A stretch of 21,653 nucleotides of DNA from a virus. Shown in pieces: positions 4,601 to 20,897 of the stretch (positions are counted from its first letter, which is position 1; every line of letters starts with the position of its first letter). The stretch covers positions 1 to 21,653 of IMG/VR virus record IMGVR_UViG_3300033155_003174; one strand, given 5' to 3'. The position numbers and the translations under genes were made by a program. The notes under the pieces were generated by a model. The model worked only from the letters and a program-made list of their open reading frames with translations, was not told the origin of the DNA and did not search any database.

Positions 4601-7496
4601 GACTAAATCATCAACCATAGCCGACGCAATTGCTGATAACGCCAAAGAAATAATTATAAATTTGGCAATTAAGCTCATAATTGCAGCTTTTAAAACATTA
4701 CTCAAAAGTGTGGCGGCAACTCTTTCTGGGGATGCTAATTCTCTCAAGCAAGGAAAAACAATACCGGATTTTTTCCAAGATGGTACATATTTTTATAGAG
4801 TTATTAGAGAATCATCTGAAAAGGCCAGCATTACAGAGGAAGAAATAAATGAGAGCGTACTGGAAACGCTACAAGAGTTACAAATTGTCAATGGTGATGA
4901 AATTTCTGCTGATTCTGTGGGGAAATTTATATCCAATACCTCCATTGTTGTCGGAGAGAGACAAAAAATAGATTTGCTAAAAGGAGAATCAAGTCGATCT
5001 ACCAAAAAAGACATCTTAGAAGCTAATCAATCCAATAATCTTGGAGAAATTTTAGCGAAAGATTCTTCAAAAATTGATGATTTATTCAGTGCCATTGGTC
5101 AAAATGTTAATTTACAAAAACAAGAAGATAATCTTACAGATCAAATAGAAAATGCCAATGTAAGCTCTATTTTTTGTTTCGAAGATGACGATCCTTTTTC
5201 ATCTGCTTTAAAAGAAAACAAAGGTATCGGAGAAGAAGAAGCAGAAGAACAAAAAAAAGAGAAACTAGAAAGAGAAAAAGAGAAATTATGCAATTATATG
5301 GATATGATTTCTAGTCCAATAGCTCCCATATTCGGAAAGGCATTTCAGAAAGTTCTTGGAAAAGATGGACCCATTTACGGAACTCTGGAGGCAGAAAAAT
5401 TTAATATTTTTAAAGATAGTTTAAAAAAATCGTATGCTTTAATGGCAAACCCCTTTTCGGCAGATCTTTACGATCCAAAAACAGGACTTTTAGAATTAAT
5501 ATTACACAGCGATGATGGATATGGTTATACCAGAAGTGATTCCAAAGGAGACCCTATCGCAGGCGATGCTCTGGAAACAATATCATCGAATATTAGAGAT
5601 GGAACAAATTTTGTTTATCAACCAGTGATTTCAGATGGAGAAGAAAAAAAATTATCTTATGAAAAAGAATTTAATATATATTCTTTTGGTTTTACGGCTA
5701 TTGGCGGTACTTCTGGGGGGACTGGTAAGGCGGGTATTACTGAAACGCTCTCAAGCGGTGCTAGTACCGGCGGAGAGCGAAAGCTACGATTGGAAGAATA
5801 TTCGAATGGGAATATAAAAATTTATATTGGTCCTCAGCTTATTGTAGAATATACTCTTAAACAAAATCTTGTATCACAAACATCTATTCTTCCCCCTTAT
5901 TTAATATGGCCTCCTCCACCTGATTATTCACGAAGCGCCAGCAGGATGTACGAGATATTATTAGAAAATTTAAATATTTCAAATGAAGATTTTGATAAAG
6001 AGTCTATCGCATCTGATATAATAGAAAATAATTTTACTTGGTTAATAGAAAAATATTATTCATATGTACAAGGCGCCATGTTGGATAGCGCTTCTTTTAC
6101 TTTTAATGATTGGAAGAATATTTATCCCAAATTTACACAAAGTAAAATACAAAAATTATTAGGCATTGATGATATAATAGAAAAAAGTTCCTTTCTGTAT
6201 CAAAGAATGGACATAGATCCGAGAGTGGTGGAGACTAAAAAGGATTTATTTTATGAATCTCCATTCGATATTGTTTTATCCAAAGAAGATTCTGTAAGCG
6301 TTTCAATCTTAACCGAATTGATGGTTAGAACTTATGCATTAGAATTTATGTTGAAATCATTCTTCACTTTCAGAGCATTTTCAGAAAAGTTTTTTGAAAA
6401 GCAGGATATAATTTCAAATTATATTATAAGAGAGATGAAAAAAGACCTTGGAGATAATTATAATTTTTTTGTGAACTTGGCAATGCAGCTTTATTTACAA
6501 AAGATCAATCTTGGAATAACTGATTTTAATAATCCAGATACCTCAGAATCTTATAGTAAATTAAGTGAAAATTTGGTAAATTTTCGTTTTGAACAAAGAA
6601 CAGATATAGATAATTTTTTAAATGATAATTCAAAATCGATCACGGCTTTAATGTCGGATTTTTCAGAAGATATTATATCACAAACTATAGCTAGCTTCAG
6701 AGATGTTTTTAGTTCTTTTCTAGTAGTGCTCGATCAATTTATTTTAGGCCCCCTATTACAGAATCGTGCCTATGATGTTGTCGACACTATTATAGATGCC
6801 AATCCGGATTTACCACAGCATGCTATTTTTAAGAGCAGCACTGCGAGTGATTATAAAAAAACTAATATTATTTTAGAAAAATATATTATAATTGAAGATA
6901 AAGAAAATGTTCCAGATAGTGTCTCCAGCATTGTAAAAAATAGGAGCGAAGAACTCTTTGGAGTTGTTAATTTAAATTCGTGGAAAACATATTTAGATGC
7001 TAATAAAGATTCTTTTGAATCTTATCAAATAGGTGACCTGTGGAAATCATGGAAATTCGGAATAAGATTATCATATGTGATGCCACCTTTCATAAATTCA
7101 GATTCGGGAGTTACCAGAGAAGAAAGACAGCGAGATAAAGCTTATAGAATCTCTATACGAGTCTCATCGGGTGGCTTATCTTACACTCTCATACCACTTG
7201 TTAAGGCGGAAATAGAAATCAACGAACAGAAGATTATACCGGGCGTTGTTAACCAATTTGATTTATCGTGTTTAATCTATGATTTATCTAAAAAAGAAGA
7301 ATATAAAAAATTATTCACAGATGCCATAGACATTGAAACTTTAATTTCTTTATTAACTATTTATAGTGTGGATAATTTTGTACCTTTATTGGGAGAAGCG
7401 GGAAATCCAAGTTCTGACTTAGATGAGTGGAACAAAAACCCGCAAACTTTTCAAAATATGAAAAATACTATTTTAGAACTTTTGGAGGATTTTTAA
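1671..7496 (+). CDS. Giant virion structural protein of unknown function, 1,941 aa
   Basis: The ATG follows the previous TAA with no gap; a weak AGGAC (about 1658-1662) precedes it. It is mostly helical and AT-rich in coding. Visible features in order: a charged N-terminus; a hydrophobic Ala/Gly segment at about residues 101-127; an acidic Pro/Glu linker at about 379-405; a block with CGLGDLASLASNSLFAFLN near 787; a hydrophobic or amphipathic helix at about 991-1017; a Glu/Lys-rich probable coiled coil at about 1188-1207; a Gly/Ser/Thr-rich loop at about 1344-1370; and a C-terminal beta-rich region (about 1793-1910) with GIRLSYVMPPF and LLTIYSVDNFVPLLG. It lacks the long uninterrupted coiled coil typical of tape measure proteins, so I do not call it one. 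It sits directly upstream of gp25 with a one-base overlap, so a baseplate-associated role is likely, but only by context. Predicted mass is above 200 kDa. Confidence 0.6.
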   Translation: MSSLGDIKTLIEEIFIKEGIKKEFINASSMKGIIENDYLTPEFRPWEEFTEEEKGNVLPPGLEPEGRERDRRKAWTGKNTESSLSPEEKKSLKELKTARTISYALLIAAGASTIGGGGIAAPAVATHSNAVIQLTKKIRALEGAVAIKNQLDRFLLISDDTLQLNGFLNKNDVNSNLKSLLLKYFYERLLKDASLKRLLIFLTALFSAEIDDISIYTPYITLDGLFLSYFNNSHSSLESFFKSIEVDEDKKRMYRSIGYSNPGVQAKNHIPVLGLIPTDISSGYYEQGDTLSSYISDGLEKIIEEQELPLIDPNGEYFRKYFDNDFANNLASTLAKQYGDDDEIKALYGNFLKLIGYTQEEVDRFLYLFVFPELDFSECSPEPEIVEEVPEDESTPEDSYEPIPPDWTTMESEKIYYNESELSYALSFVTNYETTTDKNIEDIKKEYKNQITEEMLRLLNKDYDQSEFDKMVSKLNIKSYYINPTPLLKIKLLAYLHKTDVNSLEDTVDAPSEVEETLIYNIKDLFGNLEFFVNLMKTYEQRLIVDLLRGNSLYYVGLNFSQEANFVSEFSDNLNQLIKSNIKNSDPFDFIQISFVGTSITSAVLTRDGYKNKKIISGLKSFSSSSPQTRERTINFVKNINIIVETINEKTDLKYSEFINLFFNPRPIVKETKNTLQSYSSGISQPNKLASLEEVGKRSLDALASEVKRGYVQFSCLTEDQKKELDKKIDDDENLEKKEKFGEQFQVAFEDRFFNEVPDVFKKISKEGGKKAVDALGKELLSRLGLCGLGDLASLASNSLFAFLNPQEYNDEMIKCAISKLDPETARKFYNKVKGAQILASAEQGTGFLETYRTLVGDTLLPWDATVPTGRRNVPESEANLLANLPGDYDLRIRAFADAITLSFDTTQLLQLFSSIQGGEWIKYFIEISDSIIRECKIIGGEGVLTTVNPKATGQAFNFCSDEKAKIKWPKLPKIPKTKSSTIADAIADNAKEIIINLAIKLIIAAFKTLLKSVAATLSGDANSLKQGKTIPDFFQDGTYFYRVIRESSEKASITEEEINESVLETLQELQIVNGDEISADSVGKFISNTSIVVGERQKIDLLKGESSRSTKKDILEANQSNNLGEILAKDSSKIDDLFSAIGQNVNLQKQEDNLTDQIENANVSSIFCFEDDDPFSSALKENKGIGEEEAEEQKKEKLEREKEKLCNYMDMISSPIAPIFGKAFQKVLGKDGPIYGTLEAEKFNIFKDSLKKSYALMANPFSADLYDPKTGLLELILHSDDGYGYTRSDSKGDPIAGDALETISSNIRDGTNFVYQPVISDGEEKKLSYEKEFNIYSFGFTAIGGTSGGTGKAGITETLSSGASTGGERKLRLEEYSNGNIKIYIGPQLIVEYTLKQNLVSQTSILPPYLIWPPPPDYSRSASRMYEILLENLNISNEDFDKESIASDIIENNFTWLIEKYYSYVQGAMLDSASFTFNDWKNIYPKFTQSKIQKLLGIDDIIEKSSFLYQRMDIDPRVVETKKDLFYESPFDIVLSKEDSVSVSILTELMVRTYALEFMLKSFFTFRAFSEKFFEKQDIISNYIIREMKKDLGDNYNFFVNLAMQLYLQKINLGITDFNNPDTSESYSKLSENLVNFRFEQRTDIDNFLNDNSKSITALMSDFSEDIISQTIASFRDVFSSFLVVLDQFILGPLLQNRAYDVVDTIIDANPDLPQHAIFKSSTASDYKKTNIILEKYIIIEDKENVPDSVSSIVKNRSEELFGVVNLNSWKTYLDANKDSFESYQIGDLWKSWKFGIRLSYVMPPFINSDSGVTREERQRDKAYRISIRVSSGGLSYTLIPLVKAEIEINEQKIIPGVVNQFDLSCLIYDLSKKEEYKKLFTDAIDIETLISLLTIYSVDNFVPLLGEAGNPSSDLDEWNKNPQTFQNMKNTILELLEDF
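7484..7488 (+). promoter_or_regulatory. Strong Shine-Dalgarno setting the gp25 start
   Basis: GGAGG lies 7 bases before the ATG at 7496, inside the last codons of the 1,941-residue gene. It decides between this ATG and an in-frame GTG at 7427, which would overlap the upstream gene by 70 bases, has no comparable site, and would add 23 residues not expected in this family. Confidence 0.75.
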
Positions 7497-7879
7497 TGGC
7501 TAGTGGTCTTTCTGTTTTTTTGCCATTAACTTTTAGCGAGAAGGATGGGCCTTATTTTTTGAATAAGACTATCAAAGAGTTAGCAAAACAAAACTTGAAA
7601 ATGGTTATTCTCACAAATCCCGGTGAAAGAATGATGAATCCAGAATTTGGAGTGGGAATTAGTAGATTTATATTTGAAAACAAAGAATCTGGTTTTGAAT
7701 CGGATATAATTGGAAAAATAAACTCACAAGTTTCAAAACATATACCCTATGTGAATTTAATATCTGTAGATGTCCGGGATTCTACTGAATTTGGGGATCA
7801 GATATTGGTTACTATCGAATATTCCATTCCAACCGAACAAAAAAAACAGATTTTAAACTTAATGTTGAATAACACTTAA
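7496..7879 (+). CDS. gp25: Baseplate wedge protein, GPW/gp25 family, 127 aa
   Basis: This is a member of the GPW/gp25 family, the small wedge protein that in contractile tails sits at the baseplate inner ring and helps nucleate sheath assembly. The family core is clear: LKMVILTNPGERMMNPEFG at residues 34-52, with the PGER (42-45) and PEFG (49-52) motifs, followed by a C-terminal beta hairpin (residues about 85-112). At 127 residues it is close to T4 gp25 (132). The ATG overlaps the preceding TAA by one base (TAATG) and has a strong GGAGG 7 bases upstream, which fixes the start. It is followed 24 bases later by the gp6-like gene, matching the usual W-J order. In T4 and related injection machines gp25 packs against the gp6 dimer and gp7. 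The assignment rests on motif, length and neighbours. Confidence 0.9.
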   Translation: MASGLSVFLPLTFSEKDGPYFLNKTIKELAKQNLKMVILTNPGERMMNPEFGVGISRFIFENKESGFESDIIGKINSQVSKHIPYVNLISVDVRDSTEFGDQILVTIEYSIPTEQKKQILNLMLNNT

Positions 7880-7903: not shown

Positions 7904-9697
7904 ATGGCTAAAAAAATAACACCAATTAATTATACTAGTAGAGATTTTGATTCAATTAAAGAGGAATTGGTCGATTATACAAAGAGATATTATCCTGATT
8001 CTTTTAAAGACTTTAACGAAGCCTCTTTTGGTTCTCTGATGCTGGATACGGTTTCTTATGTTGGTGATATACTTTCTTTTTATCTAGATTATCAGGTAAA
8101 TGAATCTTTTCTTAATACGGCAACAGAAAGAGAGAATGTTATAAAGTTGGCCAGACAGGTTGGCTATAAATATAGAGAGACATTTACTTCTAGTGGAGAA
8201 GTAAGTTTCTTCGCATTAATACCTAATTTGATGGCCCATCCTGGTCCGGATACCACTTATTATCCCATAATAAAAGAGGGAACTACCTTTTCAGCAGAGG
8301 GGGGCTCATCATATATTTTGACAGAGGATATAAATTTTGATAGTCCCGATACGGAAATAGTCGTGGGAAGAGTTGATCCAGCTACTGGACAACCAACCTA
8401 CTATGCTGTCAAAACAAAAGGGAAGGTAATTTCGGGACAAATTGTGGAAGAATTAGTTAATGTAGGTGAATTTAAAAGATTTAGAAAAATTATTTTAGAA
8501 ACTCCAAATATTGTAGAAATAATTTCAATTACAGATACTGATGAAAATGAATATTATGAAGTTGGAAACTTATCTCAAAATACAGTTTTTAAGAACATAT
8601 CAAGAGATAATTCAACAAATACAGACTATAAACAACTTTTAAGGCCCATAATGGTACCACGTCGCTTTGTTTCAGATTACGACGGACAAAATTATTTTAT
8701 TCAATTTGGTTATGGTTCAGAAGATGAAATTCTAGATGATCCAGTGGCAGACCCATCTTCAGTTGTTTTGAAGCAAGTTGGAAAAAATTATATTTCCGAT
8801 GAGTCTTTTGATCCATTTAAGTTATTACAAACCGACAAACTCGGAGTTGCTCCCTCCAATACCTTGCTAACAATTAAAATGAGAGTAAATACCGGTAATA
8901 ATGTAAATGCTCCCGCCGGCACCATTACTAAAATAAACGGCCTTGATGTTGATTTTGCAGAAAAAACAACCTTAGACAGTGATAAATTGTTATTTGTTAT
9001 TAATTCTATAAGTGTTTATAATGAGAAGTCTATAACCGGTGATGCAGAGCCAATTACGGCGGATGAAATCCGCGTCCGCGCCATTTCTAATTTTTCTACT
9101 CAAAATAGGGCAGTTACTGCTCGGGATTATGAAACTATAACATATGGAATGGCAGCAAAATTCGGATCCATCAAAAGGTGCAGAATAGTGGTAGATGAAG
9201 ATTCTTTTAAAAGAAATTTAAATCTTTATGTTATTGCAGAAGGAAATGGTGGAAAATTAGCCACAGCTAGCCAGCCGATTAAAAATAATTTAAGATTCTG
9301 GCTATCAAACTATAAAATGATAAATGATACTATTGATATATTAGATGGTAAAATAATAAATATAGGCATAAATTTTGAAGTAATAGCCGATATGAATGTT
9401 TCTAAAGAGGATATTTATGTCGGATGCGTTCAAAGAATACAAGAAAAAATAATGAACCCCCTTCAAATGGGAGAGCGATTTTATATTACCGATATATATT
9501 CTCAATTAAACAAGGTGCGCGGTGTGGTAGATACAAAAAATGTAACAATCACGAATAAAGTTAACGGCTTATATTCTGGTGTTAGTTATTCTATAACCGC
9601 TAATATGTCACCAGATGGGAGATACTTAATATGTCCTTTAAATGCTTGTTTCGAAATTAAATTTCCCAATACTGATATTACTGGAGTTGTTAGATAA
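7904..9697 (+). CDS. gp6: Baseplate wedge protein, T4 gp6 / Baseplate_J-like, 597 aa
   Basis: In T4, gp6 forms the inner ring of the baseplate as a dimer that, with gp7, makes the wedge core; P2 gpJ is the simpler homologue. The N-terminus has the characteristic INYTSRDFDSIKEELVDY and then the helical SYVGDILSFYLDYQVNESF block (residues about 45-70), followed by a conserved TATERENVIKLARQVGYK stretch. Residues about 380-430 carry the J-type signature: acidic TADEIRVRA, then NRAVTARDYETI. The C-terminal part (about 475-590) is alternating alpha/beta, as in the J/gp6 dimerisation region. Length is somewhat below T4 gp6 (660). The start is supported by AGGAA 8 bases upstream. The TAA overlaps the next ATG by one base. 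Family assignment is firm; exact ring geometry is inferred from homologues. Confidence 0.9.
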   Translation: MAKKITPINYTSRDFDSIKEELVDYTKRYYPDSFKDFNEASFGSLMLDTVSYVGDILSFYLDYQVNESFLNTATERENVIKLARQVGYKYRETFTSSGEVSFFALIPNLMAHPGPDTTYYPIIKEGTTFSAEGGSSYILTEDINFDSPDTEIVVGRVDPATGQPTYYAVKTKGKVISGQIVEELVNVGEFKRFRKIILETPNIVEIISITDTDENEYYEVGNLSQNTVFKNISRDNSTNTDYKQLLRPIMVPRRFVSDYDGQNYFIQFGYGSEDEILDDPVADPSSVVLKQVGKNYISDESFDPFKLLQTDKLGVAPSNTLLTIKMRVNTGNNVNAPAGTITKINGLDVDFAEKTTLDSDKLLFVINSISVYNEKSITGDAEPITADEIRVRAISNFSTQNRAVTARDYETITYGMAAKFGSIKRCRIVVDEDSFKRNLNLYVIAEGNGGKLATASQPIKNNLRFWLSNYKMINDTIDILDGKIINIGINFEVIADMNVSKEDIYVGCVQRIQEKIMNPLQMGERFYITDIYSQLNKVRGVVDTKNVTITNKVNGLYSGVSYSITANMSPDGRYLICPLNACFEIKFPNTDITGVVR

Positions 9698-11172
9698 TGG
9701 CTATAAAAAAATATTATGCCAACAAAGATAATACTATAACAAATGCTTTCGAGTCTAATCTGCAAACCCGTGGCTCAGGCGCGAATATGGGCCTCTCAGA
9801 TATATTGGAAACATTTTCAATTTATGGACAAGCCACTTCGGGTTCAACCGAACTTGAAAGAATACTGATTGAATTTCCAATTAATCAAATCACAGCAGAT
9901 AGAACAAATAATATTCTGCCCGGCTCGGGTAGCATAGGCTTTTATCTTAATATGTATAATGCACGTCACAATCAAACATTACCACGAGACCTTAATTTGG
10001 TCGTTCTCCCCATCTCACAATCTTGGCAAGAAGGCACTGGCCTCGATATGGAAGAATATAAAGACGTTACAAAGGGAAATCCTGGCTCCAACTGGATTAA
10101 TGCAGGACAAAGTGATCCTTGGACAAAAGAAGGGGGTGATTACTTAACTTCTCCGGTTTATTCTCAAACTTTTCCAATAGGAAATGAAGATTTAGAAATT
10201 GATATAACTCCACTTGTTGAAGACTGGATTGCTGGGACAATTACAAATTACGGCATTGGAGTTCATATAACATCTAGTCAAGAATCTTATTTTTCTAGCT
10301 CGACCGGGCTAGACAGTGGCAGCCAATTGGTAAATCTGGCGGGAGTAACAGATACTTACTATACAAAGAAATTTTTTGGAAGAGGTTCTGAATTCTTTTT
10401 CAAACGCCCGGTAATTGAAGCTCGATGGGATTCCTCAATAAAAGATGACAGGGGAAACTTCTATGCAAGTAGTTCTCTAGTTCCCGCAGTGGATAATACA
10501 AGAACACTCTATCTTTATAATGTGATAGGTGGAAGATTAAGAAATATCCCAGCAGTTGGAACCGGTGAAATTTATGTTAAAGTATATACATCATCATCAG
10601 CAGGGACAGATTTAACCCCGACTCCTATAACAGGAGGCTATGTTTCGCTTGGAATTTATTCGGCATCTTTTGCCTTGAATACAACCGCGAGCGCTGGTTA
10701 TGATAGGTGGTATAGTGCGGGATTGGCAGATGTTTATCATACTGGGACTTTTGATATAAAACAATATGCAGCAAGCACATATAACCCATATGGAAACTTA
10801 GTAACAGCACTTACAAATCTCAGGTCGGTTTATACAACTTCTGAAACGGCAAGATTCAGATTTTATGAACGAGAAAAAGATTGGAGTCCAACTATTTACA
10901 CCGTGGCCACTACGGTAACTGATACACTTGTCAATGAAAGTGCATCTTATCAGGTTCATAGAATAATCGACGATTTAGTTGTAATTCCATATGATACAGG
11001 AAGTTATAAAGGAACGCAAATGTCTTTTGATGTAAGTGGAAATTATTTTGATTTTAAAATAGATCTTTTAGAGCCTGGGTATTCTTACGGGATAAAAATC
11101 GCGTATTATAATGAAACAGTGAACAGTTATGTAGAGCAGCCGTATGAATGGAAATTTAGGGTAGAAGAATGA
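9697..11172 (+). CDS. DNRLRE-like beta-sandwich virion protein, 491 aa
   Basis: The first ~200 residues fit the DNRLRE (carbohydrate-binding-like) fold: an N-terminal KDNTITNAFESN stretch, then GSGANMGLSDILETFSIYG, then ERILIEFPI, later a WQEGTGLDMEEY loop, and the closing IDITPLVEDWIAGTITNYGI with GVHI. These correspond to the family's typical 'tI......g...N.G....L.v', 'R.l..F', 'W.EG' and 'dvt..v..W..G...nyG' segments. Residues about 225-245 have KKFFGRGSEFFFKRPVIEARWD, which joins to beta-rich C-terminal domains with many Tyr, Ser and Thr residues. No catalytic motif is visible. It overlaps gp6 by one base and the next gene by four (ATGA), so it is translated with the wedge genes. T4 has no such gene between gp6 and gp7. 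A peripheral baseplate decoration or a glycan- or surface-binding part is a reasonable inference. The fold call comes from pattern recall and was not computed. Confidence 0.6.
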   Translation: MAIKKYYANKDNTITNAFESNLQTRGSGANMGLSDILETFSIYGQATSGSTELERILIEFPINQITADRTNNILPGSGSIGFYLNMYNARHNQTLPRDLNLVVLPISQSWQEGTGLDMEEYKDVTKGNPGSNWINAGQSDPWTKEGGDYLTSPVYSQTFPIGNEDLEIDITPLVEDWIAGTITNYGIGVHITSSQESYFSSSTGLDSGSQLVNLAGVTDTYYTKKFFGRGSEFFFKRPVIEARWDSSIKDDRGNFYASSSLVPAVDNTRTLYLYNVIGGRLRNIPAVGTGEIYVKVYTSSSAGTDLTPTPITGGYVSLGIYSASFALNTTASAGYDRWYSAGLADVYHTGTFDIKQYAASTYNPYGNLVTALTNLRSVYTTSETARFRFYEREKDWSPTIYTVATTVTDTLVNESASYQVHRIIDDLVVIPYDTGSYKGTQMSFDVSGNYFDFKIDLLEPGYSYGIKIAYYNETVNSYVEQPYEWKFRVEE

Positions 11173-14100
11173 GTATCAGGGATCTATTTTTAGATAACGA
11201 TAATTACAAATTATTATCAAAAGATCCTACCGATCTAAGAAGGGACGGTGAGTCTCTTGGTAATATTAGCGATACTTTTAAAAACAGAGAAAAATTCATA
11301 CCCAGAGTTGATTTTAGTGAACCAGAAAACTTTGCTCATTATGGATCTGCTGAAGAGTATTATGAAAATGCCATTACTAGAATATATGGGAATTATCCTT
11401 ATGATGGATCCTCGAAAGAAAAACAAATATTCTTAAATAAATCAACATATGTTGATTTATGGGTGTTAAATAATAAATATCCAAGAACAAATGGATATAT
11501 AAACCATGGTTTAATGGGTGGATATACTGGTACGACCGGCACCACAGTCGCATGGGCTCTCACTAATGATAATGAATATATACATATGGTCGGTGGTCCC
11601 CATACTGCATCCCAAGGAATGATTGGGAAGCCACTACAGGAAACTTTCGACGATTCAAATGTATACGATGAAAATATATACGACGATGTGGGATATATAG
11701 GAAAGGGAACACGAGAGAGTAATCTTAAATGCGATCCAGATAACGGTGTAACAGTTGAATTTTGGTTGAAAAAGCCAACGTGGGCCCCCGCTTTTCTCGC
11801 CACTGATCCAGTCGGAGAATCCATTTTTGATTTAAGTGGAACAAACGATGGTCGGTTCAACGTTTCTATTACAAGTGGGTCTGGCCCCGTAGTAAGATTT
11901 AATTGTCTTTATCGAGCACAGACCCTTTCTAATTCTTATACTCCCGATGTTACTACCTTAATCTCAACTGGTTCCTGGAATCATGTTGCTGTTTCTTATG
12001 CCAATTCTGGATCGGTGGCGGAGTGGAAATTATATTTAAACGGCAATTTGGTAGATACAGAAGCCGCCGCAAGCCAGCCTGTAGAAATAACTGGCTCACT
12101 TCAAGCTAATATTGGCGCCTTGGTGGCCGCCTATCCAGGTGAAGCAGGAACTGCCTTGGCTGATGGCAAACTAACTGGCTCCCTTGACGAATTTCGTTAT
12201 TGGAAAACTCAGAGAACTTCGGAAGATATTGGTCGATATTGGTTCACACAGGTTTACGGAGGGACCAATACAGATATAGCAAATGCTACGCTTGGTGTTT
12301 ATTATAAATTTAATGAAGGAATCACAGGAGATTCTTCAATCGATTCTAGCGTCCTTGATTATTCCGGCCGCATTTCAAATGGAGCGTGGACAGGCTATAC
12401 TACAAATTCCAGAACCACAGCTTCTGCGATGGTAGAGGCCGGCGCCACCGCAGAAGAGTTTTTAGATCCTATTATTTATTCCGAAAATCCATTAGTTCAG
12501 TCTGTTTTAGCAGAAATGAAAAGTTCTGGCTCTTTTCACGATGTCCAAAACGGAACTTCTCTATATAATTCTTTTCCCACTTGGGTAGTAGACGGTGACG
12601 ATGATGGAGACGGGGATCTAAAAAAACTAACTCAAATAATGTCAAGTTATTTAGATACTCTATACTTGCAAATTCAAGAATTGCCAACTTTTAAAAATAT
12701 AGAATATTTTAGTGGAAGTTATGCCAAAGAACTTCCATTTATCGCGGAGATCCTTGAAGGCGCGGGATTCGTGGCTCCTGAAATTTTTGCGAACGCCTCT
12801 GTTTTGAGTCAAATTTTTCAAAGATCAGAGACAGAAAAGTATGAAGAAAATCTAACAGAAATTAAAAATTTAATTTACAGAAATATCTACAACAACCTTT
12901 TATACATCTATAAATCAAAGGGAACTGAGAAGTCATTTAGAAATCTAGTCCGTTGTTACGGAATAGATGATTCATTGGTAAAAATTAATCTATATTCAAG
13001 TAACTTGACCTATAAATTGGAAAATACTTATGAATATACAACAGAAAAGAAAAGATATGCCGAGTTTTATAATAGTGCCTATTTTAACGCGACTGTTTAT
13101 CAACAAACATCGAGTTTAATATCTGATAGTATATCTTATATTTCTGCATCGTCTACAGATTTAGAGAAATATACCTCCTTTACACTAGAAACAGATATTA
13201 TTTTACCAAAAAAGAGAAAAGAAACGGATAGAAGTTATTTTTCTACTCCATTTATCACATCTTCTATTTTTGGATTTCACACTGCCGATCCAACAACACC
13301 AACAGATTTTACATGGGCAACAACAGATTATGATTTGCAGGTATATGCCGTAAGACCTCCCGAAAATAATAATACGCAAGATGCCTATTTTATGTTAACC
13401 AGTTCTCAGTTTGGGGTAGAATTAAGGACTAATGTTTTTAAAGATGCGTATGATAATAAGAAATGGAATATTTGTGTTAGGCTTAAACCAGAGAAGACTC
13501 ACGCCGATCTTGTTTCTGGCTCTTCGGTAACAAATTATTCTTTAGAATTTTACGGAGTTCAATCAGAATTAGATGTTGTGAGATCTGAATTTTCTTTATC
13601 TTCTTCGTTATCTGGGCCCGAATACCTAACAGAGCCAAAAAGAATTTATGCTGCAACCCATCGTCAGAATTTCACAGGATCCGCCATTCATGGAACAGAC
13701 TTGCGACTGGGCACAATTAGATATTGGATGAGTTATTTAGATAATGATGTTATCCAGTCGCACGCCAGAGACTCTTTCGACTTTGGAGTAAAAAATCCTT
13801 ATTTTGGAGAATATCCTTTCGTAACTTCTCTTTTACAGACACAAATACCGGAAATAGAGACATTAGCCCTAAATTGGACATGGGATGTTGTTTCCTCTTC
13901 TAACAATTCGGGTCAATATCTTGTATATGATGTGTCATCGGGCTCCTCAAATGCCCTAGATAAATATTCGTGGCTTAGTAATGTAACTCAAAAACAACAC
14001 ACAGCGATTGGAGATTTTTATCCGGCGGCCTCAACCGTAGTTAATGAAGAATATATACCTCTTGCAAGAAAGAAAAATCCAGAATCTTTAAATCCTACGT

Positions 14101-17100
14101 TTAATTCAATAAAAATTTCCAGTCTTGAAGACGAAGAGGCCTTTACTAGAAATCGTAGACCAGTTAATTATTATTATACACTAGAAAAAAGTATGTATGA
14201 AACTATTTCGGAAGAAATGTTGAGATATTTTTCTACAATTGTGAGTTTTAATAACCTAATAGGAGAACCAGCCAACCAATATCGTTCTGAATACAAAGAT
14301 ATAGAAAAATTGAGGGCCCTTTTCTTTGAAAATATTGAAAATGATCCAAATATTGAAAAATATATTGAATATTATAAGTGGATAGACAGTTCTTTATCAA
14401 CAATGCTCACTCAATTAATCCCCGCCAGTTCTAATTTCACTGATGGTATTAGAACAATAATAGAAAGTCATGTTTTGGAGAGAAATAAATACAGAAATAA
14501 ATTAGTTACTCTGGGAAGTATTAATACAGATATTGGATCCGGACTTCATGGAATAGGAATAGGCACTTATGATTGGGCCATTGGTTCTCCAACGCTCCCT
14601 AGTTCTCCTCCTCCCACTAACGAGCATTGTTTTTGGTGGAAAAATAGAACAAATAGAACAAATCCTCAAATAACTTCCGGAGATACAGCAGTTGATGCTA
14701 ATAGGAATGCTTATTTATCTGCCAGCTTATCAGTTTTAGTAAGGAGTTATTCCACCCCTCTTAAATTTTCTATGAAAAAAGAAGAAATTTATGGCACGGG
14801 GCTCACTTCCAATAACAATAATCTAACAAATTATATAAAATCATCAACCGAATTTGGATCTTCGGATGGATATTTGATTGAAGAGTCCAAAGTAAAGGCA
14901 TTTTTAGATTGTAATGATGTAATTGATCCTCAAGAAAAGAAAAAGTGGTCTTTTGAAGGCAAAAATCAAATAAAAAGTGGAGATTATTATACAACAGAGG
15001 GGGATTTAACGGCTCCCTTTGTCGCAGTTAGCTCTTCAGTCACTACTGGTTATAATAGTTTGGTCAATTCCCAGTTTAAGTCTGGATTTGGAATAGAAAA
15101 CCTCCATTTAGATACATATACTCAGGGGAATGTACCCTTGCAGGGCCCATTTACTGAAAAATACGTCGGAGGTAATCAATATAGGCACGTTTCTTTAAAT
15201 CAAGGGAACGATGATCAAACTAACAGACCAGAAGGCTGGAATATCCAATTTCAAGCGGCGCCAACAGCACTAAAAATAATTCATCAGCCAATAAATTTAC
15301 CTCGTGCAACATTTTATCGTGATTTGATTGCAAAAAGGCCCGTTAATATTAGAAATATCAAGGATAATGCTGCTAAAAATGAAATAGGGAATTATAGCAA
15401 AGATTATCAAATAGTTCAAACATGCGGCCGAAAAATTAACAACGTGGCCTTCGTAAAGGCTGGAGGCTTCAATATTGTTTATATCCCCTCTCCTTATGTG
15501 GCAGGAATGGACGATTATGCAAAACCCCAACGTGGAAGAACCGAACATGTCTTTGTTAATCGTTTCTCTTCTCCAGGATCCCCCGAAACAGCAGGAGATT
15601 CAAATGGTGGCCCAGGATTGGATCCCACATCAGCCGAATATTCTCCCTATAATGATTTAAATTATAGAAATACATCAGTTCGAGACCCCTATAGGCTTCT
15701 CTTGTCTTCACACGTTAACCAATTTGGTTTTTATTCTGATGAATTTGGAATAGGAAATGGCCCTTCAGTCGTTAATTCGCTAAATTATATCGGAACGGGC
15801 AGTATTTATCAAGTAAATAGAAACCCCATCAAACAAATTAAGGGATCTGGGCCGACTACTATAACGGCATCTGTTTACGATAACTATTGGATCCAACATC
15901 CGATCCCGAGAACTGATATGCAGTATGCGTGGATAACGGCATCAGCCACTTCATATAATACCTTTGGTTATCTTCCTTACTCGGGCGAAGTTTCTTCGTC
16001 TAGTGGGCCCATTTCTCTTGTAACCTTTTCTTCTGCGAGTGATTATGTTTCTTATTTCCGAGATGAGACGGGTCCAAATTCTTTTATCTTCTTTGGAGAA
16101 GACCAGCTTTTATTGCCGATTGAAACTGTTAATTTTACTTCTTCTTATTATATACCCACTGTCTATAACGGTTTAAATTATAATATTTATGAGCCCCTGA
16201 ATTCTACGGGTTTCTTTATCGGCCACCCGGCCAATTCAACGGTCGACGCCTATCTTAATAACACATTAATACCGGGCACGATCGTCGGCCCACCTGCTTC
16301 TGGGTTGAGAGGCAACGGGCAGGCATCTCTATTGAATGCCATTCTTCTTAAAAGAAACGGCCCCTACCAGCACCCAACATGGAAACAAATCCGAGGTAAT
16401 GAAAATCCATTAGTGAGACATTGGAATAATACAGCAACCACAGCCTATGTTCTTTCGGGTCCATCTTACGTTGATCCGGTAGGTAATAGAAAGATAGTGA
16501 AATTTGGAGAACAAAAGATATTAAAGGATCCTCCTGTTGTTTCTAAATATAATCCTATCCGAATGGGATTCAAAGTAGCAGTTGAAGTAGAGAGCGATAA
16601 ATATCCTCCCTATGTTACTCTAGAAACGGTGCGCCTAAAAAATACTTATGGTAATGATTTCGGACAATTTGCCAATCAAGAAATAACAAACGATCTTAGA
16701 AAACAAAATGCAGCCGATAATTTGTGTGATGAGGATTCTTCTTATAAAGCCATCTTGAGTTTATATATCAATGGCGCCCTCGATCAAGATGAGAGTCCGA
16801 TCACAGAGCTTCTATACTTATCTTATCCTGAGCAAGTTTATCCTGCAACAATAAACTGTTATACAAAAAGAAATCGAGAAAGGTTGGGATATCAGAACAC
16901 ATTTTGGAAAGATTCTCGGCTGGAAAGAACAACTCTTGGAGAATCTAAATTCGGAGGAGATAATTCACAAGGATTCCCCCGAGTTCAGAGCGCTTGGGCA
17001 CTTGACGCCGCACAACAATTTGGAGATGTTTGGACCGGAGGGATAACGGGTCTAGCTTCTTACCCTATATGGAGCTATTCCGTTGGCGCCTCGGGAGAAT

Positions 17101-19925
17101 TGCAAAATGATTACACATTTTTTTGGGATGCTATCTTTTTTGTCTCTTCCTCTTTAATTAGACCATCTCCTATTCTTTCGAGAAAGCAAGAGATTCAAAG
17201 TAAATATTCAGTTGTAACCCCTACTGGGATGGAATCTCTCGTATTGGCGTCCACAAGTCCCACTTATTTGAGTACTTATGAAAATGCGTTTTCGTCCGCC
17301 TTTCCTCTGGGAAGAATACAGGGATGGGGAGGAAACGCTAAATTTGAGGCTGATAAGTTCGCGGGCTATGTTGAAGATGGAATTTTTACTTCAGCTTCTG
17401 CTACTCCATTTTACGATAAATATGAATTATACAATCTCAATATGAGATTAAAAAATAAGGATATGTCACTAATCCCAGAATTTAGAATTGGAGAGCATAT
17501 TCAAAAATATTTAACGGATTCAAATGGCTTTGTCTCCGAAAATACGGCATCGTTTTCAATTTTTGGTGTGGATTCTTCATTGGCGCCCCGAAATAGCTCA
17601 GAGGATAATTTTTATCGCATTTATTCTTTCTCTGATTTTATGGAATATTTTGAAGTTTTTGATGAAGATCACAAAGAGTTTGATTTGCCAAAAACACTAA
17701 CGCTTTCTTGTAAGGCGTTGATGAAGTTTATTCCTTACGACGGGTTTTATCCAGCGGAAAGGACATTGGATATAGCCAGTTCCTTTTCTCAATCATACTC
17801 TTCTTATATTTCTTGTTCCGGAGGTACTCTCACCAACGGCTCCCTTTCGGATCCTCTTCGCATGCGCCCCGTTTACGAGCCTCTGTTTTCGCCAGGAATT
17901 TTATTTAATACTATTAAATCCGGTGTTGCTGTGGATTATCCTGTGTATAGTTCTCCATTTCGCAGGATAACTTACCAGACCGGCAGCGATCCCCTCGCCC
18001 CCGGCGCCTCAGGTTATCCCCAAGCAATTGGAGAGAGGGTGTCTGGAGAGGATGGCTGGTCCCATAGATTTAATTTTGAGAAATTATTAAATCCAGAAGA
18101 AATAAATAATATTCCGCTAGTTGATATGAACGGATCTGATAAAATAAGATTAGACATTACTTCTTCCTTATCCGATGCACCTTCTGGTCGCAATCAATAT
18201 AAAATGATGATAAATAACTTTTTGGGAGAAGTGCCAAGCTTTTTCTTAAATGAATTGACAACTCAAAAATCAAATAAAGAAGAAGAATTTATATTTAAGC
18301 CAGGAACGTCGTATGGAATGAGGGTCAAGATGCATCGGAGCATGAATCAAGAAAGAACCGGTTCTGTATCTTTTGGCCTCGGAGGCGGGAAATTTCAAGT
18401 ACCCCAAGATGTTCCAACGGCCGATCCTGATCTTTACGAAACAATTACAATGTATAGTCGCCCATCGGCATTTGGCCCTCCTGTGGCAGGTACAGATCGT
18501 ACCTTAAGTGGTACTATAAATTCCGATAGTATGGGTGGAGTTAATCCGTCCTTTACCCCTCCTTATTACAACGGGGAATCATGGGCAGATATTCTATATA
18601 ACAGCGGCCCAAGCACGGGTTCTGTCACACTTGATGAGGTTCTTGCTTCTGCATCTGTAAAGTTTTTAAGAATATTTCCTGACACAGACGCTTGGCCAAA
18701 TCCGGAGTTTTCATCGCTCACTGTGGGTGATTATCCTATGCGCGCCGCGAATGCGGATAAATACGCCATGCAATTAAGTGCTTCTGTTAATTTATTTAGA
18801 AAGGACTCTGATAATCGGTGGACCATTCAAACTAAATTTGAAACTCCAATTTTAAATTTTGGTGACAAAACTAAAAGACCACTAGGATTAGAAGAATTGG
18901 CTCTTCCTTCTTCCGGATCCGGAGACGGTCCCGCCTTTCTCCTTGGATTTGGAGGACAAACCAGTACTCCCATAGGAATGTGGCACCAATTTGGTCTAAT
19001 TCCAGAAGAAAATCAAGGAATTTATTTAAGCATCGGAGATATACCATCCGCCTTCCTCAGTTATCAGGAGCTACCGCCTTTTTATCCTACTTCTTTGGAT
19101 TCTCTAGCTGATATTGTGGGCTTTGAAAAGACGGGTCGAAAGCTGGGCCAGTTAAGGGACTCTAAAACTGTTTATGAGGCAATAGTGGCAGTTCCATTTA
19201 TTGAGCAACCGGATACAAATCAGGAAAAGACATTTTTTGAGCTTCCGAAAATAGCCTCTTTCGATCCTGCTTCTAAAATAGAAGATAGGGATCCAAGTGT
19301 TTTATTCCCGTCGAGCACGAGTCAAGACATTCTGGATATGGCCGACAAGATTAAGAATAAATATGTTTTCCCGCCACAATTTGACTTTATAAGAAACCCG
19401 ATGGCACTACCGGTCGCGATGTACATTTTTGAATTTAAACACACTTTTGATAAAAATGATTTGTCCCATATATGGCAAAATCTTTCTCCTAAGTTTGGAA
19501 CTCAATATAAGGAAGCACTATCAACAATCTCTCATCCACTTCTAACGGGCCAAATGCTTAAGTCTATGGAGGGAAAAGTAAGATGGATGGTTTTCAAGGT
19601 GAAACAAAGAGCAAAGGCCGATTATTATAGCAATATTGTGGGCGCCCCGAAAACAGAAGAGCACCTATTTGGTTATAATTGGCCTTATGACTATTTTTCA
19701 ATGGTTGAGTTTGCAAAAATAGATGCAAAGGTAAATTTTGGGAAGGAACCAGATATACCAATTAGAACGCTTTCAACAGCCTCTTCTGGATTGTTGAGAA
19801 CTACCTTTAGCAGTGATGTATCGCAAACTTCGATAAGAACAACTCAAGATATACGCACATCACAAGTGGAAGCTACGGCAGTAGTAGATGCAGCTAAAGA
19901 AATAAAGAAGAGGGAAATTAAATAA
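11169..19925 (+). CDS. Giant baseplate protein with LamG domain and gpI/gp7-like segment, 2,918 aa
   Basis: Domains in order: an acidic N-terminus (1-190); a LamG/concanavalin-A-like domain (about 190-405) with VEFWLKKPTW, SWNHVAVSY, WKLYLNG and GSLDEFRYW; a helical block (about 490-615) with LPFIAEILEG, NIYNNLLYIYKSKGTEKSFR and LVRCYGIDD, which resembles P2 tail protein I and its T4 counterpart gp7; a helical IRTIIESHVLERNKYRNKL element near 1097-1116; a very long beta-rich, Ser/Tyr/Asn-rich middle; a C-terminal block (about 2745-2860) with MYIFEFKHTFDKNDLSHIWQ and VRWMVFKVKQRAKADYY; and a Ser/Thr-rich tail. It follows gp25 and gp6 as gp7 does in T4, but is nearly three times the length of T4 gp7 (1,032) and about 320 kDa. 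By family it should clamp the gp6 dimer and link to peripheral parts; the LamG and middle regions may bind host surface glycans. The wedge assignment is moderately sure; the receptor role is speculative. Confidence 0.65.
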   Translation: MSIRDLFLDNDNYKLLSKDPTDLRRDGESLGNISDTFKNREKFIPRVDFSEPENFAHYGSAEEYYENAITRIYGNYPYDGSSKEKQIFLNKSTYVDLWVLNNKYPRTNGYINHGLMGGYTGTTGTTVAWALTNDNEYIHMVGGPHTASQGMIGKPLQETFDDSNVYDENIYDDVGYIGKGTRESNLKCDPDNGVTVEFWLKKPTWAPAFLATDPVGESIFDLSGTNDGRFNVSITSGSGPVVRFNCLYRAQTLSNSYTPDVTTLISTGSWNHVAVSYANSGSVAEWKLYLNGNLVDTEAAASQPVEITGSLQANIGALVAAYPGEAGTALADGKLTGSLDEFRYWKTQRTSEDIGRYWFTQVYGGTNTDIANATLGVYYKFNEGITGDSSIDSSVLDYSGRISNGAWTGYTTNSRTTASAMVEAGATAEEFLDPIIYSENPLVQSVLAEMKSSGSFHDVQNGTSLYNSFPTWVVDGDDDGDGDLKKLTQIMSSYLDTLYLQIQELPTFKNIEYFSGSYAKELPFIAEILEGAGFVAPEIFANASVLSQIFQRSETEKYEENLTEIKNLIYRNIYNNLLYIYKSKGTEKSFRNLVRCYGIDDSLVKINLYSSNLTYKLENTYEYTTEKKRYAEFYNSAYFNATVYQQTSSLISDSISYISASSTDLEKYTSFTLETDIILPKKRKETDRSYFSTPFITSSIFGFHTADPTTPTDFTWATTDYDLQVYAVRPPENNNTQDAYFMLTSSQFGVELRTNVFKDAYDNKKWNICVRLKPEKTHADLVSGSSVTNYSLEFYGVQSELDVVRSEFSLSSSLSGPEYLTEPKRIYAATHRQNFTGSAIHGTDLRLGTIRYWMSYLDNDVIQSHARDSFDFGVKNPYFGEYPFVTSLLQTQIPEIETLALNWTWDVVSSSNNSGQYLVYDVSSGSSNALDKYSWLSNVTQKQHTAIGDFYPAASTVVNEEYIPLARKKNPESLNPTFNSIKISSLEDEEAFTRNRRPVNYYYTLEKSMYETISEEMLRYFSTIVSFNNLIGEPANQYRSEYKDIEKLRALFFENIENDPNIEKYIEYYKWIDSSLSTMLTQLIPASSNFTDGIRTIIESHVLERNKYRNKLVTLGSINTDIGSGLHGIGIGTYDWAIGSPTLPSSPPPTNEHCFWWKNRTNRTNPQITSGDTAVDANRNAYLSASLSVLVRSYSTPLKFSMKKEEIYGTGLTSNNNNLTNYIKSSTEFGSSDGYLIEESKVKAFLDCNDVIDPQEKKKWSFEGKNQIKSGDYYTTEGDLTAPFVAVSSSVTTGYNSLVNSQFKSGFGIENLHLDTYTQGNVPLQGPFTEKYVGGNQYRHVSLNQGNDDQTNRPEGWNIQFQAAPTALKIIHQPINLPRATFYRDLIAKRPVNIRNIKDNAAKNEIGNYSKDYQIVQTCGRKINNVAFVKAGGFNIVYIPSPYVAGMDDYAKPQRGRTEHVFVNRFSSPGSPETAGDSNGGPGLDPTSAEYSPYNDLNYRNTSVRDPYRLLLSSHVNQFGFYSDEFGIGNGPSVVNSLNYIGTGSIYQVNRNPIKQIKGSGPTTITASVYDNYWIQHPIPRTDMQYAWITASATSYNTFGYLPYSGEVSSSSGPISLVTFSSASDYVSYFRDETGPNSFIFFGEDQLLLPIETVNFTSSYYIPTVYNGLNYNIYEPLNSTGFFIGHPANSTVDAYLNNTLIPGTIVGPPASGLRGNGQASLLNAILLKRNGPYQHPTWKQIRGNENPLVRHWNNTATTAYVLSGPSYVDPVGNRKIVKFGEQKILKDPPVVSKYNPIRMGFKVAVEVESDKYPPYVTLETVRLKNTYGNDFGQFANQEITNDLRKQNAADNLCDEDSSYKAILSLYINGALDQDESPITELLYLSYPEQVYPATINCYTKRNRERLGYQNTFWKDSRLERTTLGESKFGGDNSQGFPRVQSAWALDAAQQFGDVWTGGITGLASYPIWSYSVGASGELQNDYTFFWDAIFFVSSSLIRPSPILSRKQEIQSKYSVVTPTGMESLVLASTSPTYLSTYENAFSSAFPLGRIQGWGGNAKFEADKFAGYVEDGIFTSASATPFYDKYELYNLNMRLKNKDMSLIPEFRIGEHIQKYLTDSNGFVSENTASFSIFGVDSSLAPRNSSEDNFYRIYSFSDFMEYFEVFDEDHKEFDLPKTLTLSCKALMKFIPYDGFYPAERTLDIASSFSQSYSSYISCSGGTLTNGSLSDPLRMRPVYEPLFSPGILFNTIKSGVAVDYPVYSSPFRRITYQTGSDPLAPGASGYPQAIGERVSGEDGWSHRFNFEKLLNPEEINNIPLVDMNGSDKIRLDITSSLSDAPSGRNQYKMMINNFLGEVPSFFLNELTTQKSNKEEEFIFKPGTSYGMRVKMHRSMNQERTGSVSFGLGGGKFQVPQDVPTADPDLYETITMYSRPSAFGPPVAGTDRTLSGTINSDSMGGVNPSFTPPYYNGESWADILYNSGPSTGSVTLDEVLASASVKFLRIFPDTDAWPNPEFSSLTVGDYPMRAANADKYAMQLSASVNLFRKDSDNRWTIQTKFETPILNFGDKTKRPLGLEELALPSSGSGDGPAFLLGFGGQTSTPIGMWHQFGLIPEENQGIYLSIGDIPSAFLSYQELPPFYPTSLDSLADIVGFEKTGRKLGQLRDSKTVYEAIVAVPFIEQPDTNQEKTFFELPKIASFDPASKIEDRDPSVLFPSSTSQDILDMADKIKNKYVFPPQFDFIRNPMALPVAMYIFEFKHTFDKNDLSHIWQNLSPKFGTQYKEALSTISHPLLTGQMLKSMEGKVRWMVFKVKQRAKADYYSNIVGAPKTEEHLFGYNWPYDYFSMVEFAKIDAKVNFGKEPDIPIRTLSTASSGLLRTTFSSDVSQTSIRTTQDIRTSQVEATAVVDAAKEIKKREIK
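11745..12384 (+). other. LamG / concanavalin-A-like domain inside the giant wedge gene
   Basis: Residues about 193-405 show the order expected of a LamG (Laminin_G_3) jelly roll: a first strand with VEFWLKKP, then the central SWNHVAVSY followed by WKLYLNGNLVDT, then GSLDEFRYWKTQRTSEDI near the end and a closing YYKFNEG strand. Such domains often bind carbohydrates in phage fibres and tail proteins. Confidence 0.75.
12645..13013 (+). other. gpI/gp7-like helical segment of the giant gene
   Basis: Residues about 493-615 hold consecutive amphipathic helices, an LPFIAEILEG turn, and LLYIYKSKGTEKSFRNLVR, the 'y..KGT..s.r.l...yG' pattern of tail protein I (P2 gpI). This is the main evidence for the wedge role, along with position after gp25 and gp6. 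Confidence 0.55.
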
Positions 19926-20897
19926 ATGAGGTTTATGAACAAAAAAGAAGAAGTACTTGACATAAAATTAACACAGTATGGTAAAAAACTTCTTTCCGAA
20001 GGAAAGTTGGACCCGGTATACTACGAATTTTTCGACGACAATATTCTTTATGATGCTCAATACGGTGGCGTTAGCGAAATTCAAAACGATATTGAAAATA
20101 GAATACTTTACGATACCCCTCAATTGCGAACTCAACATAAATTCACATCAGCTTCGGACAAAATTTCAGATATCTACATAAAGCAACCCGATGGAAAAGT
20201 GGTTACAATCCCCATTACCCAAGTAAAAGAAAATAATACTTTAGTTAGCCCGCTAGGAACATCAGAAGTAGATAATAATAAATTTCCTGCCTTTAAGCTA
20301 AAAATTTATGATGGAGAAATAACAAGCGTCGATACCGACTATACTTCTTCTTTTGGAAAGAGAATTCCGCAAATTAATTGCAAAATCGAAGCAACCGTTA
20401 ATATAAAAAGCATAGATGATTTTCAACACATTCAAGAATTCTCCACAGTAATGTCTCCTACAGATACCAATGGTAATTTTTTAACCGTCAACGTCCCGAC
20501 TTTTTTGCTGGAGTTAGAAGAGCAAAATGTTGAATTTTCAAATGAAAATTTTGAAATTGAAGTATTTTCTTTCTTCACTTCCTCGGGAGATCTCATGCCG
20601 TTAAGCTTTTTAACAAAAGAAAAAAATAGCAATATAGTAAATGGAATTTTAGGAGATGACATTGATGAGAACGAGGATTTTCGCTTACCTTCTAATTTAA
20701 ATACAGAATATTATTTCGATGTTGTTTTAGACGGAGATATTCAGCCCGTTGTATTTTCGAATTTATCTGCCCGGTTTAAATCTTCCGGTCTTTATGATAA
20801 TTCTGCAATGGGATCATATAAAAAAGATACAATTTTAGAAATTGCAGATATTTATTCTACTAATGTAACTGATGGTGATATAGAGGATTGCAGTTAA
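19926..20897 (+). CDS. Putative virion structural protein, 323 aa
   Basis: Function is not known. The N-terminus MRFMNKKEEVLDIKLTQYGK, then a helix, then PVYYEFFDDNILYD (residues about 36-49), is a pattern I recall at the start of unnamed structural proteins in marine myoviruses, next to large tail proteins. The rest is mainly beta-type with acidic loops: a central region (about 120-215) with repeated KIYDGEIT and TVNVPTFLLELE strands and a C-terminal block ending in Asp/Glu/Cys-Ser. The ATG directly abuts the previous TAA; a GAGGG site (about 19911-19915) lies about 10 bases upstream. A second in-frame ATG at 19935 could serve, but the first preserves the MRF start seen in relatives as I remember them. 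No enzyme motif, signal peptide or membrane segment is seen. A baseplate or tail-associated role follows only from context. Confidence 0.6.
   Translation: MRFMNKKEEVLDIKLTQYGKKLLSEGKLDPVYYEFFDDNILYDAQYGGVSEIQNDIENRILYDTPQLRTQHKFTSASDKISDIYIKQPDGKVVTIPITQVKENNTLVSPLGTSEVDNNKFPAFKLKIYDGEITSVDTDYTSSFGKRIPQINCKIEATVNIKSIDDFQHIQEFSTVMSPTDTNGNFLTVNVPTFLLELEEQNVEFSNENFEIEVFSFFTSSGDLMPLSFLTKEKNSNIVNGILGDDIDENEDFRLPSNLNTEYYFDVVLDGDIQPVVFSNLSARFKSSGLYDNSAMGSYKKDTILEIADIYSTNVTDGDIEDCS

Follow-up and report, generated by a model that had tools for sequence, protein, structure and literature searches.

In phage T4, the baseplate has six copies of the wedge protein gp7, which touches gp6, gp8, gp9 and gp10 (PMC3004832). 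In phage XM1, gp17 does the wedge-scaffold job in 242 amino acids, the tail spikes being bound by an insertion loop and by the C-terminal tail (PMC10457771). P2 gpI (Tail_P2_I, PF09684), XM1 gp17 and pyocin R2 PA0619 are scaffolds of about 176–242 amino acids, with separate fibre proteins, and occur after gp25/gp6-type genes. That gp7 is highly divergent was noted by Sullivan et al. 2010 (PMC3037559).

Annotated genomes of ocean cyanophages already include oversized proteins at the gp7 position. In isolates, a giant gene after gp6 specifies 4,307 amino acids in P-TIM68, 4,067 in SynMITS9220M01, 4,120 in S-SCSM1, 4,314 in S-CAM7, 4,454 in P-HM2 (gp7), 5,195 in P-SSM2, 5,422 in S-CREM1 and 7,019 in ACG-2014g (lengths for incomplete records were computed from the annotated coordinates). 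Several of these giant proteins are annotated as gp7 or baseplate wedge initiator, and PHROG 2885, “baseplate wedge subunit”, is a model of 4,179 positions. We found no papers that discuss the giant gp7-position proteins of cyanophages.

The window analysed here is a marine IMG/VR virus record of 21,653 bases, a fragment of its genome. It includes one uninterrupted open reading frame of 2,918 amino acids (11169–19925, + strand), whose ATG start overlaps the preceding gene's stop codon (ATGA). Its length and coordinates are as first reported; the approximately threefold length relative to T4 gp7 comes to 2.8 times (2,918 versus 1,032 amino acids), and the 2 MDa or so calculated for six copies to 1.96 MDa, at a computed mass of 326.7 kDa each. 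We conclude, at a probability of roughly 0.8, that we have here a T4-superfamily phage whose giant protein is a gp7/gpI-type baseplate-wedge scaffold subunit made larger by integral domains. This version of the oversized protein, and its extension, are undescribed.

Gene neighbourhood and the gp7/gpI signature

Upstream of the giant gene, the window carries a gene for a gp25-like baseplate protein (7427–7879, +; PF04965, E 5.7e-10) and one for a gp6-like baseplate wedge protein of 597 amino acids (7904–9697, +; PHROG 219, E 1.1e-27), both of which had been recognised from the sequence alone. The place of T4 gp7 in the gene order, also claimed, holds as to the strand and the cluster following gp25 and gp6 but not as to the position directly after gp6, where a conserved gene for 491 amino acids (9697–11172, +) intervenes; it separates gp6 from the giant gene in all of the relatives read. 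A conserved gene of the same module, for 323 amino acids (19926–20897, +) and without Pfam or PHROG family, begins at the base directly after the stop of the giant gene; its N-terminal motif, FFNKKEEVLDI.LTQYGK.LLS.GK..P.YYAFFDDDILYD, is conserved in some 70 relatives. The order gp6, 491-aa gene, giant gene, 323-aa gene is conserved, and the module is common to about 80 loci, as far as the contigs extend. The 323-aa gene has no detectable similarity to gp8, and neither it nor the C-terminal unit of the giant protein gave a signal that would identify it as such. PHROG searches on the genes downstream in two relatives were uninformative. Ahead of gp25, the window harbours an open reading frame of 1,941 amino acids without family match (1671–7496; 1,500–1,878 amino acids in relatives), and the leftmost part of the contig (1–663) holds an Amidase_2-type, endolysin-like fragment.

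The single sequence of the giant protein found no match in Pfam, in PHROGs (including the gp7 families) or in 50,697 phage records. Profile comparison with hhalign did relate helical core 1 (residues 433–640; 12465–13088, +) to gpI (P 9.5e-5) and to gp7 (P 1.3e-4), where the benchmark, gp7 against gpI, accepted relatives of each other, yields P 1.6e-4; core 1 is as near to gpI and to gp7 as these two are to one another. The alignments are short (27–65 columns), with hhalign probabilities of 43–60%, that of gpI and gp7 with each other being no higher. The gpI/gp7-like segment extends over residues ~526–651 and includes K584-G585-T586, which sits between two helices of core 1; the corresponding helix-KG(I/T)-helix signature lies at residue ~738 in T4 gp7, and a KGT helical signature is likewise shared, at comparable profile strength, with P2 gpI, XM1 gp17 and PA0619. 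When the protein was divided into sliding segments of 201 residues, only 451–651 and 526–726 scored (P 8e-5 to 2.5e-4), all others remaining at P 0.05 or above against gpI and gp7; helical core 2 (see below) showed no signal by itself, and the C-terminal unit, used as a control, gave P 0.35 and 0.39. The gp7/gpI-type segment announced in the preliminary description is thus supported at the level of profiles, and unique within the protein.

The signature is also the only one of its kind in the longer contigs of the family. We screened 13 contigs of 78–205 kb at E values up to 1, using profiles of gpI and gp7 that exclude the giant family (gpI relatives from viral contigs, all of them near-copies of P2, were also left out). 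The gpI profile matched in six contigs and the gp7 profile in two, seven contigs in total, and every match fell inside core 1. A separate gp7 homologue, which had been named as grounds for abandoning the gp7/gpI assignment, was found in none of these 13 contigs, a result that holds only within the sensitivity of the profiles because six of the contigs had no match whatever; the window's own contig is a fragment of 21.6 kb. The window protein does not reach the cut-off of PF09684, nor does the giant family, unlike P2 gpI, and the giant protein stands outside the Pfam family Tail_P2_I; sub-threshold matches (E ~0.025) lie inside the giant gene in two records, one of which is new. The PF09684 model misses T4 gp7 as well, so that falling short of it does not exclude a gp7-type protein.

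It could be argued that the 491-aa gene, which follows gp6 immediately as gene 7 does in T4 and gene I in P2, is the true counterpart of gp7/gpI, and that the giant protein has a gp10-like role, as a pin or fibre-network subunit of the periphery, and just happens to contain a KGT-like helix pair. This is improbable: the gp7/gpI signature is confined to the giant protein, whereas the 491-aa family yields no signal with either profile (hhalign P 0.21 and 0.37), which led us to reject it as gp7, and has the look of a beta-sandwich, with Disaggr_repeat or CBM96 matches in some relatives and a Laminin_G_3 match in 2 of the 27 members scanned (a subset of the family is ~240 amino acids longer). In BRock, moreover, the Tail_P2_I-matching gene (gp126) is likewise separated from gp6 by another gene.

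Domain architecture of the giant protein

Sequence conservation in the profile of relatives spans the entire giant protein up to residue ~2880. The C-terminal block at 2745–2860 is conserved, as had been noticed, but it is not the only such part: residues 361–440, 561–600, 1001–1120, 1321–1360 and 2161–2200 are conserved as much or more. The N-terminal conserved region (residues 1–165; 11169–11663, +) is of no known family. It is followed by a LamG/concanavalin A-like domain (residues 167–431; 11667–12461, +), where Laminin_G_3 (PF13385) matched in 10 of 15 family members, with a best E value of 1.3e-31 and, in one member, 32.3 bits against a cut-off of 27.6. The family profile detects LamG at 167–431 in every member, and the window protein matches only in this way; five relatives have additional LamG-like stretches elsewhere in the protein. 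Most of the additional sequence had been described as beta-rich and of no recognised family; the LamG domain had been missed.

Nor is there one continuous helical core at residues 490–1120. In the AlphaFold2 (AF2) model of residues 440–1160, helices at ~441–600 (low pLDDT) and at ~1009–1083 are split by a beta domain at ~605–970; the helices occur at the places expected for a gp7-type core, but with low pLDDT. The beta domain (residues ~640–975; 13086–14093, +), with pLDDT mostly 76–95, bears only a weak likeness to LamG (hhalign P 0.0038 over 54 columns), which makes it at most a weak candidate for a second LamG domain. The gap between cores 1 and 2 is only ~40 residues wide in the homologue of Flavobacterium phage immuto. 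Helical core 2 (residues ~981–1125; 14109–14543, +) is conserved into isolated phages and has its helices at ~1009–1018 and 1062–1083. While the open reading frame, its size and the gp25/gp6 neighbours stand as originally described, the core, the extent of conservation and the LamG domain required correction.

A conserved region without known family (residues 1165–1720; 14661–16328, +), which has extra LamG-like domains in some relatives, leads to the C-terminal unit (residues 1721–2870; 16329–19778, +). AF2 folds these ~1,150 amino acids into a compact, mixed alpha/beta structure (pLDDT 80.9; pTM 0.86), for which there is no sequence relative in Pfam, PHROGs or the PDB, and internal repeats were not found in the giant protein. 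The extra part therefore does not look fibre-like, contrary to what the preliminary description had envisaged for the periphery. Against PDB sequences, the family profiles of the LamG and middle domains found no match, and those of the core and the C-terminal unit only matches at chance level (for the core, IcmE and a SNARE), which we discarded.

The LamG domain in every member, the extra LamG-like domains in some and the shortness of the gp7/gpI match would also suit a structural protein of the tail-fibre or adhesin type that has no part in the wedge, its likeness to the KGT segment being convergent. We consider this very unlikely, since two independent family profiles match only the helix-KGT-helix segment, in seven contigs, the linkage with gp25 and gp6 is strict, no other gp7/gpI candidate was found, and the C-terminal part is compact rather than fibrous.

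Relatives and the fused or split gene

In viral contigs, the N-terminal query identified five relatives and the C-terminal query 243, of which 80 were kept. The giant gene is conserved in about 80 marine viral loci, in single-ORF forms of 2,787–4,028 amino acids; close relatives are 56–69% identical over the full length. Family contigs reach up to 205 kb. A T4-type gp23 capsid gene is present in 9 of 12 long family contigs and in both isolated relatives, which identifies the relatives as T4-superfamily phages. Neither virion proteomics nor a structure turned up for this phage group.

Through gp6, we found three outside relatives: Microcystis phage Mel-JY01, Flavobacterium phage immuto and an uncultured phage of 484 kb. 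In all three, gp6 is followed by a homologue of the 491-aa protein (369–420 amino acids) and then by a homologue of the giant protein (1,265–1,400 amino acids), matching core 1 with E 1e-13 to 1e-18 and core 2 with E 1e-4 to 1e-12. The proteins of the two isolates, WWT39511 of Mel-JY01 (1,336 amino acids) and immuto_161 (1,265 amino acids), are annotated as hypothetical protein; they are true homologues, with cores 1 (E 1e-15 to 1e-18) and 2 in the same gene cluster. The three outside homologues stop at the equivalent of residue ~1,290 and do not have the C-terminal ~1,600 amino acids, implying that residues ~1–1,290 are a shared unit and ~1,290–2,918 an addition; loss of the latter elsewhere would explain the pattern less simply. 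A search for the C-terminal unit in isolated relatives and cyanophages, run without a positive control, found none.

The giant cyanophage proteins resemble the window protein in being oversized and encoded after gp6; the KGT segment is seen in P-TIM68, at ~200, and in S-CREM1 and ACG-2014g, at ~700, and the S-CREM1 protein has a LamG-like stretch. Full-length or C-terminal similarity between them and the window protein is not significant, and the additions of the latter are another set, including the C-terminal unit not found in theirs. In Synechococcus phage ACG-2014g (L096, 2078–23137), the structural protein of 7,019 amino acids after gp6 carries the segment at ~696. The existence of such larger gp7-position proteins (4,067–7,019 amino acids) in isolated cyanophages takes away some of the initial surprise and weakens the claim of an unusual architecture.

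In 13 relatives, which constitute one clade (SH-aLRT 99), the giant protein is specified by two genes, divided at residues ~1600–1720 (15966–16328, +, in the window). The two are mostly closely spaced or overlapping, with a ribosome-binding-type sequence ahead of the second start. The split clade sits among fused forms, although support for the deep branches is weak. The C-terminal unit can thus exist as a protein of its own. The same two-gene clade might suggest that the giant length is an artefact, with a fault in assembly or sequencing having fused two genes, but this can be dismissed, as fused forms account for 38 of the 53 rows of the tree and occur on many independent contigs, including those of the 56–69% identical full-length relatives. 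L018 was not taken for a genuine split (a 234-base gap, with its near-identical sister L019 fused), and L037, split at another position, was set apart. In L026 and L021, the giant gene occurs in several open reading frames, the breaks probably being sequencing or assembly errors.

Candidate role in the baseplate wedge

The earlier interpretation is supported in part: the gp7/gpI segment is borne out, the fibre-like periphery is not, and the claim of unusualness has lost force. Compared with T4 gp7, the giant protein has LamG and C-terminal units that are undetected there; in common with it, it would be a large monomer, expected in six copies. For its copy number, gp6 contact, position in the baseplate and sugar binding, we infer an arrangement in which core 1 would come together with helices from the N termini of two gp6 molecules to make a (gp6)2-gp7 core bundle, core 2 probably taking part in the same bundle, each wedge having one such bundle and the baseplate six. 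The LamG domain at 167–431 and the adjacent 491-aa protein may present surfaces of the carbohydrate-binding type at the rim of the baseplate. Together with the C-terminal unit, they would form the outer part of the wedge, in contact with host glycans or fibres. In the way that smaller relatives use insertions and tails at the C terminus (XM1 gp17), the C-terminal unit may be a covalently attached peripheral subunit that connects the wedge with baseplate or fibre proteins further downstream.

More tentatively, and with the odds against it, the periphery might largely be one covalent chain with an absorbed lectin-type domain and a new fold of ~1,150 residues, instead of separate subunits of the gp8, gp9 and gp10 types. 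In that case, a single polypeptide would couple the sensing of receptors to the opening of the wedge in these marine T4-superfamily phages, a widespread group with almost no references, and the C-terminal unit, which has its own gene in one clade, would be a new structural family. The natural fused/split pair makes the stoichiometry and the role of the large subunit testable. Reference databases barely cover these marine phages, and the giant family supplies a gp7-type anchor for annotating their baseplates.

As weak host evidence, relatives are also found on short contigs in a Maricaulis MAG (L197, 7081–9333) and a Poseidoniales MAG (L198, 2390–4660), which are probably viral contigs within the bins.
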